Part shown: positions 26,805 to 30,012 of the stretch, piece after piece
Position numbering within the stretch: the first letter of the stretch is position 1
Layout: each line of letters begins with the position of its first letter
From: Bdellovibrio bacteriovorus HD100
GTDB lineage: Bacteria > Bdellovibrionota > Bdellovibrionia > Bdellovibrionales > Bdellovibrionaceae
Assembly: GCF_000196175.1 (NCBI RefSeq)
Contig: NC_005363.1
Location: forward strand, 2,976,001-3,040,000
Direction of reading: 5' to 3'
DNA: 64,000 nucleotides
Program-made: the position numbers and the translations under genes
Notes under the pieces: generated by a model
What the model saw: the letters and a program-made list of their open reading frames with translations, nothing else
Told to the model about the DNA's origin: nothing
Databases searched by the model: none

Positions 26805-27737
26805 ATGCCTGGTTTGCGACTTTTCATTCTTATATCAGTTCTTTGGACAGCCTCCCAGGCGCTGGCCGATTTTTCGGATTGTTACCTTATTAACGAATGC
26901 AGCAAGTTCCGACGGGACCCCGCCAGCCCGGCGCCGGGGGGAAGCCAGATTAAGATCAACCCATCCGCAGTCCCCACGGAAAAAGGTCTGGGTCTGGAAG
27001 CCATCTATTTCAATCCCTCCGCGGACTTTTCGATAGTTCGGGGTAACGGCAAGGTCGGAGCGGCCCTGTCCCCTTCCAACAGTGAGGAAACCTTCTTCGG
27101 GGCCCCCGGCTTTGAACTGATGGATGATCTTTGGGAGCGCAAACACAAACAGGAAAAATACCCGAACCAGAAACTGACCCTGGCCTCGGCCTTCGATATC
27201 GTCGATCGTAAAGGCAGCGGACACCGCCGTTACAGCCTGAAAGTCGGCGCCATGGGGAAGTACAACACCCAAAGCCAAAATGCCACTCTGGGAGGTGGTA
27301 TCAACGGGATCTGGGGCCCTTTTTCTGCCGGCTATTCCGTCTATGATGATCAAACCCAACTGGAATACAGCGAAGAGCTTAAAAAAATAATCAAATACCG
27401 GGTCAACACCTACAACGTGGCCCTGCATTTAAGCTCGCTGATTTTAAGCTACTCCAATTTACATCTGGTTGAAGAAAAAGAAACCTATGAAGCCCGGGTG
27501 CAGACTTACACCGCATCCCTGGCATTGGGAAAATTCATCTTCACAGGTTCCAAACGTGTCGAGGATTCCCCGGCCTGGGCCTATAACTATGAAACCAAAG
27601 AACTGGAAGAAAAGCAGATCAAAGAAGAATACTTTGGCGGTGTCCAGTATGCCCTGAGCCGCCGCTTTATGATCGGGGCGCTTTACAACTACTATCTTCT
27701 GCGAGAGGGCTCCGTCACGGCGACTTTGTTCTTCTAA
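26805..27737 (+). CDS. Outer-membrane beta-barrel-like protein
   Basis: 310 residues with a signal peptide (LFILISVLWTASQALA). The sequence then shows amphipathic strands with aromatic girdle residues (YSLKVGAMGKYN, GPFSAGYSVYDD, NVALHLSSLILSYS, VQTYTASLALGKFIF, RRFMIGALYNYYLL) and ends in SVTATLFF, a terminal-Phe signal for barrel assembly. Residues about 25-120 form a polar N-terminal region with an early cysteine pair (DCYLINEC). The substrate or role is unknown. An overlapping ATG at 26801 is in another frame. Confidence 0.68.
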   Translation: MPGLRLFILISVLWTASQALADFSDCYLINECSKFRRDPASPAPGGSQIKINPSAVPTEKGLGLEAIYFNPSADFSIVRGNGKVGAALSPSNSEETFFGAPGFELMDDLWERKHKQEKYPNQKLTLASAFDIVDRKGSGHRRYSLKVGAMGKYNTQSQNATLGGGINGIWGPFSAGYSVYDDQTQLEYSEELKKIIKYRVNTYNVALHLSSLILSYSNLHLVEEKETYEARVQTYTASLALGKFIFTGSKRVEDSPAWAYNYETKELEEKQIKEEYFGGVQYALSRRFMIGALYNYYLLREGSVTATLFF

Positions 27738-28681
27738 ACGCCCGCCAGTTCAAATCCCGGAATCGCACTTATGAGCAACTCTGAAGCCTCCACGGTCACC
27801 GCCTGCACCGGAATTTCCCGCATCAACCCCGTAAGACTGCGACAAGGACCGATGTTCACAAATTGATCGACCTGATGATCCTGTGCCAGCTTTTGCACCG
27901 CCCGGCTCCAGTGAATGGGCTTGGTGATGCTTAATAGAAATTCCTGCTTGATCTGTTTGGGATCAGTCAGGGGCTGGGCACTCAGACTTGAAAAAATCGG
28001 CACGCGAGGAAGCTCAGTGTGCACGCTTGCGAAGTCCTTTTCCACCGCCTGCACATAAGGCAGAATATAGCGTGAATGCACGGGGTAATCCAAAATACGC
28101 ATGACGTTCCAACCTTTGTCTTTAGCATATCTTTCCACTTCATCCAGATCAGCATACCGGCCCCCGATATTCAGAAATCTGGGTGTCAGACAGGATACAT
28201 CCACGTTGTTTTGTTCAAACCACACATAGTCCTGTTCCGTAAACGGCGCAGTTTTGGGTGCCAGCACCGCGATGTTGCGGCCGATCTTATCAATCCCATC
28301 AATGCTGCGGGTGAAATGAATGTGATTATAGACGGCATCTTCAAAAGTGTACGTCCCGGCAAACACCGCCCGGGCCAGATCCCCGAGGGAACATCCCATG
28401 ACCCAGTCCGGATCACCGCTTTGTTCGCGCAGCCGACGAGCCACACCAGTTTGTATGCAGCAAATCGCCACCGCGGCCAAACTGATGTTTTTTAAAGAAT
28501 AAATATCCTCGGCAGGGAGCTCGAGAAAATCCTTAAAGTTGAAACGATGACCAAAACGCTCCTGAATAATCGCTTCGGCCCGACGAAAACACGCCTGCAC
28601 TTCTGGCAGATGTAAAAAACGATGACGATCCGACTTTCGCAACAAAGCATTCAAGCCGGGAAAGAGAAAGGCTGTCGCCAT
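27734..28681 (-). CDS. FabD-like malonyl/acyl transferase domain protein
   Basis: 315 residues with the acyltransferase fold of FabD and polyketide AT domains. The nucleophile is Ser98 in MGCSLGDLARAV, where the usual GHSLG has Cys instead of His. The catalytic-type His202 is in YPVHSRY, and the C-terminal loop is FVNIGPCRSLTGLMRE. It would move an acyl group between CoA and a carrier protein. No ACP or ketosynthase lies nearby, so this is probably not the housekeeping fabD. It is coupled by TAATG overlap to the diiron protein upstream. Stop codons overlap the convergent barrel gene by four bases. Confidence 0.82.
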   Translation of the reverse strand: MATAFLFPGLNALLRKSDRHRFLHLPEVQACFRRAEAIIQERFGHRFNFKDFLELPAEDIYSLKNISLAAVAICCIQTGVARRLREQSGDPDWVMGCSLGDLARAVFAGTYTFEDAVYNHIHFTRSIDGIDKIGRNIAVLAPKTAPFTEQDYVWFEQNNVDVSCLTPRFLNIGGRYADLDEVERYAKDKGWNVMRILDYPVHSRYILPYVQAVEKDFASVHTELPRVPIFSSLSAQPLTDPKQIKQEFLLSITKPIHWSRAVQKLAQDHQVDQFVNIGPCRSLTGLMREIPVQAVTVEASELLISAIPGFELAGV

Positions 28682-30012
28682 TATCGCAACTCCATTTCGG
28701 TTTCAGTGTGACGATTCCATTTTCGCACCGGGAACGCGCGCTGATAGAGCGGAGCAAACTCGGACATCTGGTCCTGGGTTGCAATCAGGGAAAGCACCCG
28801 GCTGGCGGTGTGCTCAAAAACCACTTCCTCGGTCTGGCGAACCCATTTCAAAAGTTGCGCATCCATAAAGGCCCGGTCGCCGATTTCTTCATGCACCATG
28901 CGGGTGTGCTCGGCCTCGTCCTGCAAGATCGCGGAAATTGTCTGGGCCACCCCCACATTGTCAGTTCCGCGCATGAGATCGGTGTAGTGACGGAACACCC
29001 GCATTTCCAATCCCCAGGCGCCATACAGATAAAGCTGTTCGGGTTCCGGAATCTGGCGCATCATCAGACTGAAATACCGGGTCAGATAGCGCTCCAGCTC
29101 ATGACACAGACGCCGCTCCAACTGGCGATACCCGGGAACAGCCAGCCATTTGCGTCTTTCCAGCACGACACTTCTTTGCAACAAACGGGCGTGGCGCAAT
29201 TCATCGCTGACATGTGCGGGCATTAAATCCGGCATCGGCAGATCGCGGGAGATGAAAATCTTCTGCATATGCAAAGAGGCCATCAATTCACTGTGCCCCA
29301 AGGCGTGAACCCAGGCCACCTGCGCAGACGGACGGTCCGCAAGGACCCGAACCAGCTTTTGACTGGCACGAATGACCGGATCTGCCTGGAATTCATGACT
29401 TTGAAACTCTTGCACCAGTACGGTCATGCGCTGAACCATCAGCAAACACATTTCCTTTTCAATGACCTGAAGCTCTTGCAGGGACAGGCGGTCTGCCTCT
29501 GGTAAAGTGGCCAAAAACTTTTTGCCCAGCTGAATGTGCCCGACTTCGTCCGCCAAAACTTCCTGCATGCCTTCGCGAATTCTGGGGCTGCTGGTGCCTT
29601 CAATGTAGGCCGAATAAATCTGAAAAGGAAACTGTTCAATGGTGATCGCCCCATGCACATAGGCAGCAAAGCGGGATTGCGCCTGCAGCAAAACCGGATT
29701 GGCAAAAAAGCCCAAGACAAAACTTTCCGCCACAGACCGCAGGCGCTGGCGCAGATCTTCATAGCGCCCGTCTTTCGCCAGCGGATAAGGTCGCAGTGAC
29801 AGAATGACATCGCGGTGGCGGGCTTCATCGGCGGCATGCTCCTGAATGTCGGCCACAAAGTGCCGCGGCGTGGAGGCTGAGATATTTCCCAGAACCTGCT
29901 GTGCAGCCAGATGCTCCATGTGAGCCAGAGTGCTCAGCCAGGCCGATTCCAGATGTGGATCTTCCGTCACCAGTGAAATGAGATATTGAATGGATTCAGT
30001 GAAGTTTTTCAT
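28681..30012 (-). CDS. Tandem ferritin-like diiron protein
   Basis: 443 residues, almost all helical, no signal peptide. Four DExxH motifs occur at D62-H66 (DEARH), D155-H159 (DEVGH), D270-H274 (DELRH) and D365-H369 (DEAEH). Pairs are 93 and 95 residues apart, and the two pairs are offset by about 209, so two ferritin-like four-helix domains are in tandem, each with a full diiron site if upstream glutamates (for example near 33, 126, 242 and 336) contribute. Likely an oxygenase, desaturase or N-oxygenase acting on acyl or amino substrates; the reaction is unknown. It is translationally coupled to the FabD-like gene. Confidence 0.8.
   Translation of the reverse strand: MKNFTESIQYLISLVTEDPHLESAWLSTLAHMEHLAAQQVLGNISASTPRHFVADIQEHAADEARHRDVILSLRPYPLAKDGRYEDLRQRLRSVAESFVLGFFANPVLLQAQSRFAAYVHGAITIEQFPFQIYSAYIEGTSSPRIREGMQEVLADEVGHIQLGKKFLATLPEADRLSLQELQVIEKEMCLLMVQRMTVLVQEFQSHEFQADPVIRASQKLVRVLADRPSAQVAWVHALGHSELMASLHMQKIFISRDLPMPDLMPAHVSDELRHARLLQRSVVLERRKWLAVPGYRQLERRLCHELERYLTRYFSLMMRQIPEPEQLYLYGAWGLEMRVFRHYTDLMRGTDNVGVAQTISAILQDEAEHTRMVHEEIGDRAFMDAQLLKWVRQTEEVVFEHTASRVLSLIATQDQMSEFAPLYQRAFPVRKWNRHTETEMELR

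Follow-up and report, generated by a model that had tools for sequence, protein, structure and literature searches.

A BioE-related diiron protein coupled to a FabD-fold acyltransferase: a candidate fatty-acyl tailoring module in Bdellovibrio bacteriovorus HD100 and its relatives

Two overlapping genes of Bdellovibrio bacteriovorus HD100, encoding a tandem ferritin-like diiron protein related by sequence to BioE and an acyltransferase (AT) of the FabD fold, are a real, jointly inherited unit, and we consider it somewhat probable (roughly 0.55) that they constitute a two-gene fatty-acyl tailoring module of a diiron oxygenase and a non-malonyl AT. The pair lies in a 64,000-nucleotide stretch that was analysed as a whole (hereafter the window; C1:2976001-3040000 of a genome that consists of one contig of 3,782,950 bases). 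Both genes are read from the minus strand, the diiron gene upstream and the AT gene downstream, and the features referred to below are as follows (window positions):

28681..30012, minus strand: gene of the tandem ferritin-like diiron protein, BioE-related by sequence (443 aa ORF)
29398..29991, minus strand: diiron domain 1, residues 8-205, with ligands E33, E63, H66, E126, E156 and H159
28771..29367, minus strand: diiron domain 2, residues 216-414, with ligands E242, E271, H274, E336, E366 and H369
28679..28683, minus strand: TAATG stop/start overlap, read in the sequence
27734..28681, minus strand: gene of the FabD-fold AT without the malonate-binding Arg (315 aa, PF00698)
28388..28390, minus strand: codon of the catalytic Ser98 in GCSLG, read in the sequence (Ser invariant)
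28313..28315, minus strand: codon of Phe123 at the FabD Arg117 position, from alignment with the genome's own FabD
28076..28078, minus strand: codon of the catalytic His202 in P[VA]HS, from alignments

An initial annotation, made from the window's sequence alone, had reported that the two genes share a TAATG stop/start and that the AT carries GCSLG; both were recovered, the overlap being legible in the sequence and the motif occupying residues 96-100. A search for promoter and terminator signals gave none that exceeded chance. At its other end, the AT gene overlaps a convergent plus-strand ORF (26805-27737) by 4 bases at the stop codons (27734-27737).

The unity of the pair was assessed in a survey of 369 Bdellovibrionota genomes, with a threshold of >200 bits for the AT family. 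The AT family exceeded this threshold in 27 genomes, and the diiron family was present at 66 bits or more in the same 27, with scores above every BioE-type match, so that the proposed co-occurrence of the two genes is seen in 27 of 27 genomes. The genes are adjacent and co-directional in 26 of these, the 27th (G338) being cut at contig ends. According to ORF calls, the AT start falls between -76 and +8 nt relative to the end of the diiron stop codon (26/26 loci); the form of the junction varies (TAATG, ATGA, TGATG), and the genes flanking the pair vary freely between genomes. Evolutionary distances of diiron domain 1 and of the AT are correlated (r = 0.96; the 300 genome pairs compared are not independent of one another). 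The two trees resolve into the same pair of deep clades, whose limits do not follow taxonomic families, f1 and f12 each containing both types. Both genes are under purifying selection (dN/dS 0.05-0.07 for this genome against two close relatives), with similar values for the two diiron domains (0.066 and 0.044). Within the genus Bdellovibrio the pair occurs in 12 of 24 genomes and is therefore accessory. A search of plasmids with the diiron protein returned no match, and no published description of the diiron-AT pair was found in the open-access literature. Two irregular loci were also observed: G017, which has a coupled diiron-AT pair, holds elsewhere a second AT copy (L056:9177-10085; 66% identical to the window's AT) with no adjoining diiron gene, and the AT gene of G001 (L057:9675-10671) is split over two overlapping ORFs by a frameshift or an assembly error.

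Four regularly spaced DExxH motifs had been noticed in the diiron protein, and this regularity holds: E63/H66, E156/H159, E271/H274 and E366/H369 are separated by 93 and 95 residues within pairs, by 208 and 210 between equivalent motifs and by 115 between the middle two. Among 20,000 shuffles of the protein none contained four DExxH motifs, and the maximum of three was reached in 2. The remaining diiron carboxylates complete each motif pair (E33/E126 and E242/E336), such that each half of the protein presents a full E...ExxH...E...ExxH site, and the two domains form an internal duplication (27.6% identity, E 1.6e-11). The view that both domains are metal-competent can be upheld family-wide for domain 1, where the iron ligands, diiron glutamates included, are invariant, but for domain 2 only in Bdellovibrio members and G351; the domain 2 ligands are lost in G353, G156, G112, G103, G115, G052 and G059, and the diiron members of G046, G071, G090, G251, G252 and G114 are single-domain proteins. 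Because the second site is lost or the second domain absent in many members, one iron site suffices for the module. The pair of G251 has as its divergent neighbour a genuine DUF455 ferritin-like gene (164 bits; L118:335-1111).

The initial annotation could match its proposed pathway to none already known; for the diiron partner, a known relative exists in BioE. BioE is a ferritin-like diiron oxygenase that cleaves C14-C18 acyl-ACP to pimeloyl-ACP, and the taxa given for it are Bacteroidota families, Burkholderiaceae and Chlamydiaceae, Bdellovibrionota not being named (PMC12915131). The weakest match of the diiron protein (P0002; E 8.6e-4) sits in a bioB-bioF-bioD operon, and a profile of the diiron family retrieved further proteins, ~190-225 aa long and encoded next to biotin genes, in G072, G243, G246 and G276; these biotin-operon proteins of the phylum fit BioE. 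BioE-like genes beside bioD, bioF or bioDA were seen in Bdellovibrionota at L135:1252-1869, L136:1392-2021, L167:1468-2145, L168:1492-2124 and L169:1372-1950. In profile-profile comparison with the phylum's BioE, the tandem diiron type gave 97.9% (E 6e-13) and the single-domain type 98.3% (E 2e-14). By spacing, the CpBioE ligands (E41, E68, H71, E140, E170, H173) correspond to E33, E63, H66, E126, E156 and H159, and the EmBioE channel residues Y117, I124 and L131, mutation of which abolishes function (PMC12915131), to Y118, I125 and I132, a match drawn from the published EmBioE and CpBioE numbering and the phylum's BioE proteins rather than from the EmBioE and CpBioE sequences. Furthermore, Y118, I125, E126, Y133 and E185 are invariant in alignment A4, as are their counterparts in the phylum's BioE.

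The AT of the pair, ACYLTRANSFERASE, is a PF00698 protein (E 9.5e-14), and its AF2 model (pLDDT 91.4) has the fold of FabD and PksD. Its description as FabD-like is accordingly right for the fold, but not for the likely specificity: the protein misses the NCBIfam cut-offs for both FabD (TIGR00128; 70.9 bits vs 260.9) and MdcH (TIGR03131; 77.6 bits vs a curated 297.9), and the column of FabD Arg117 holds F123, a residue invariant in alignment A3 and almost invariant in wider sets. The Ser-His dyad (S98 and H202) is retained and invariant. Most members have Cys instead of His directly ahead of the nucleophile, and the xFHS motif of FabD becomes P[VA]HS in the AT family, the small residue in place of Phe suggesting a roomier pocket. 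A missing malonate Arg is diagnostic of acyl hydrolases, whose motif also loses the His (PMC11775670). Considering, as read from alignments, the change of Arg117 to Phe, the other active-site changes and the likeness to acyl hydrolases, malonyl is an unlikely substrate, and we would not class the AT as a malonyl transferase. A more remote AT branch, related at 21% identity (profile-profile E 2e-51), was observed beside Coq4 in G051, in G094 and on a Saprospiraceae contig (L080:6001-7904, L121:1429-2978, L122:3572-5195), in each case with no accompanying diiron gene; across Bacteroidota, the profile of this divergent AT gave, beyond one Saprospiraceae genome, matches of at most ~78 bits, taken as ordinary FabD, and the diiron profile found nothing in the Saprospiraceae genome with the divergent AT.

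The pair had been thought unlikely to belong to a housekeeping fab operon, as no ACP, ketosynthase or fabH was apparent around it, and a second fabD was looked for in the genome. None of these three genes was found near the pair, and a true housekeeping FabD (TIGR00128, 322.8 bits, over cut-off) is indeed present in a fab operon at 1.925 Mb, ~1.08 Mb away, adjoined by an ACP and a ketosynthase. These are the only PP-binding ACP and the only full FabF-type ketosynthase of the whole genome, which holds two further weak partial ketosynthase matches. With one ACP and one FabF-type ketosynthase available, the probable substrate of the pair is ordinary fatty acyl-ACP (or acyl-CoA). Two identities considered for the AT were rejected, namely the housekeeping FabD (score below cut-off, Arg117 missing, true FabD elsewhere) and a PKS accessory, the genome having one ACP and no PKS, and hence nothing for an acyl hydrolase to proof-read.

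The neighbours of the pair in other genomes fit fatty-acyl tailoring with lineage-specific additions. On the same strand, the pair is adjoined by a fatty-acid hydroxylase family gene in G046, G071, G090 and G251, by a P450 in G114 and by Coq4 in G052 and G059. A YqcI/YcgG gene and DUF1989 lie beside it downstream in G011 and G022 and upstream in G001 and G018, two gene orders that suggest more than hitch-hiking. The YqcI/YcgG neighbour is a GntA equivalog (219.7 bits vs a cut-off of 145) and belongs to a family whose enzymes serve natural-product pathways as hydroxylases of guanidine N-H groups (PMC12866846). In HD100, none of the five (fatty-acid hydroxylase, P450, Coq4, YqcI/YcgG, DUF1989) is adjacent to the pair, and Coq4 and YqcI/YcgG are absent as partners elsewhere in the genome. 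FA_hydroxylase-GH3, enolase and ICMT genes that face the pair in G103, G112 and G115 were given no weight because the three genomes represent one genus. Genes that fuse a fatty-acid hydroxylase domain to a GH3-type acyl-amide synthetase were observed at L054:52-2634, L113:11105-13582 and L114:4198-6666 (checked against Pfam for L114 only); in G103 and G112 they lie close to the pair, and in G011 the distance to it is ~6 kb.

We hypothesize that the diiron protein would bind a fatty acyl chain on the housekeeping ACP (or CoA) and oxidise it, presumably in domain 1, by C-C cleavage as in BioE or by hydroxylation; homology to BioE does not fix the reaction, because the same fold serves many. The translationally coupled, acyl-hydrolase-like AT would, by way of an acyl-serine intermediate, either release the acyl group from its carrier, with an acceptor or water receiving it, or load it, and the product would be a modified fatty acid or conjugate for specialised use. 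The specialised acyl-modifying pathway suggested by the initial annotation fits this scheme, in which we infer the long-chain substrate, the order of steps, the acceptor, the product and the pathway itself. A broader proposal, possible but more tentative than the module, is an undescribed Bdellovibrionota lipid or signal pathway in which a BioE relative cuts or hydroxylates housekeeping acyl-ACP, a dedicated non-malonyl AT receives the product, and the tailoring enzymes (fatty-acid hydroxylase, P450, Coq4-like, guanidine N-hydroxylase family) are lineage-specific.

One alternative narrows the tailoring module by specifying what becomes of the acyl group: the diiron protein would cleave or hydroxylate acyl-ACP, and the AT would only hydrolyse the product, so that a free fatty acid is released and no acceptor takes part. 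The AT does resemble trans-acting acyl hydrolases in having neither the Arg nor a His before the Ser, and PksD is among its best fold matches, yet FabD and PKS ATs fit the fold equally well or better and PksD-type enzymes prefer short chains (PMC11775670); we regard this oxidative thioesterase as rather unlikely. The homology of the diiron protein to BioE would also allow the pair to provide pimeloyl groups for biotin, as BioE does. However, 17 genomes in a set of 100 relatives bear the pair, HD100 included, and bioB over cut-off is missing from all 17, biotin genes do not adjoin the pair, and the HD100 metabolic model lists biotin among its required supplements (PMC7529429). The missing bioB in the pair-bearing genomes tested implies that the pair is not for biotin synthesis, and this role, extremely improbable in our estimation, was rejected, barring a biotin synthase of an unrecognised kind in HD100.

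The remaining alternatives arise from the structural relatives of the diiron protein. Aldehyde or alkane chemistry resembling that of AAR-ADO would have the AT supply acyl groups and the diiron protein act on a fatty aldehyde; aldehyde-deformylating oxygenase (ADO), whose substrates are long-chain aldehydes, is the first solved structure reached by the diiron profile (E 8.8e-5) and the best structural match of the AF2 diiron model (pLDDT 85.6; Z 15.5, where Z ~15 lies little above chance for helical bundles). Among the sequence searches only the profile reached ADO, phmmer searches of PDB sequences with P0002 and with one BioE of the phylum yielding nothing; no reductase is coupled to the pair, and sequence kinship to BioE is far stronger, which makes such chemistry decidedly unlikely. 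MiaE, with Z 15.4, is practically level with ADO as a match to the same model, and the diiron protein also has weak matches to Rubrerythrin and to DUF455 (PF04305; 29 bits, below the gathering cut-off of 34.3), as might an iron-storage, peroxide-scavenging or MiaE-like RNA-modifying protein with an incidental link to the AT. That explanation seems to us very improbable, given that BioE is closer in sequence and that co-inheritance and coupling are strict across families despite changing neighbours.

The preferred reading, a fatty-acyl tailoring module, is of interest in view of what BioE does: this diiron enzyme, described only recently, cleaves ACP-bound fatty acyl chains. Conservation of an AT-coupled sister group of BioE where biotin genes are missing implies that such chemistry has a second use, here among predatory bacteria about whose specialised metabolism little is known. 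In HD100, the two-gene, one-ACP system is one whose product could be directly revealed by genetics and lipid analysis.

Compared with known systems, the AT shares fold and catalytic dyad with FabD but has Arg117 replaced and scores far under the FabD cut-off, the true FabD lying elsewhere. With PksD, a trans-acting acyl hydrolase of trans-AT PKS, it shares the FabD fold, the Ser-His dyad and the absence of both the malonate Arg and the His before the nucleophile (PMC11775670); it differs in carrying Phe at the Arg position, where acyl hydrolases usually have Gln or His, and in working beside a diiron protein in a genome without PKS. Cyanobacterial AAR-ADO likewise joins two proteins, one acting on acyl-ACP and the other a ferritin-like diiron enzyme, and ADO is the closest solved structure to the diiron protein, whereas the partner here has an AT fold and is not a reductase. 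BioE differs from the pair, which has tandem domains, a coupled AT, no adjoining biotin genes and no bioB in the tested pair-bearing genomes, but resembles it in all six iron ligands and in the channel residues, whose spacing agrees, and in profile-profile values of 97.9-98.3%.
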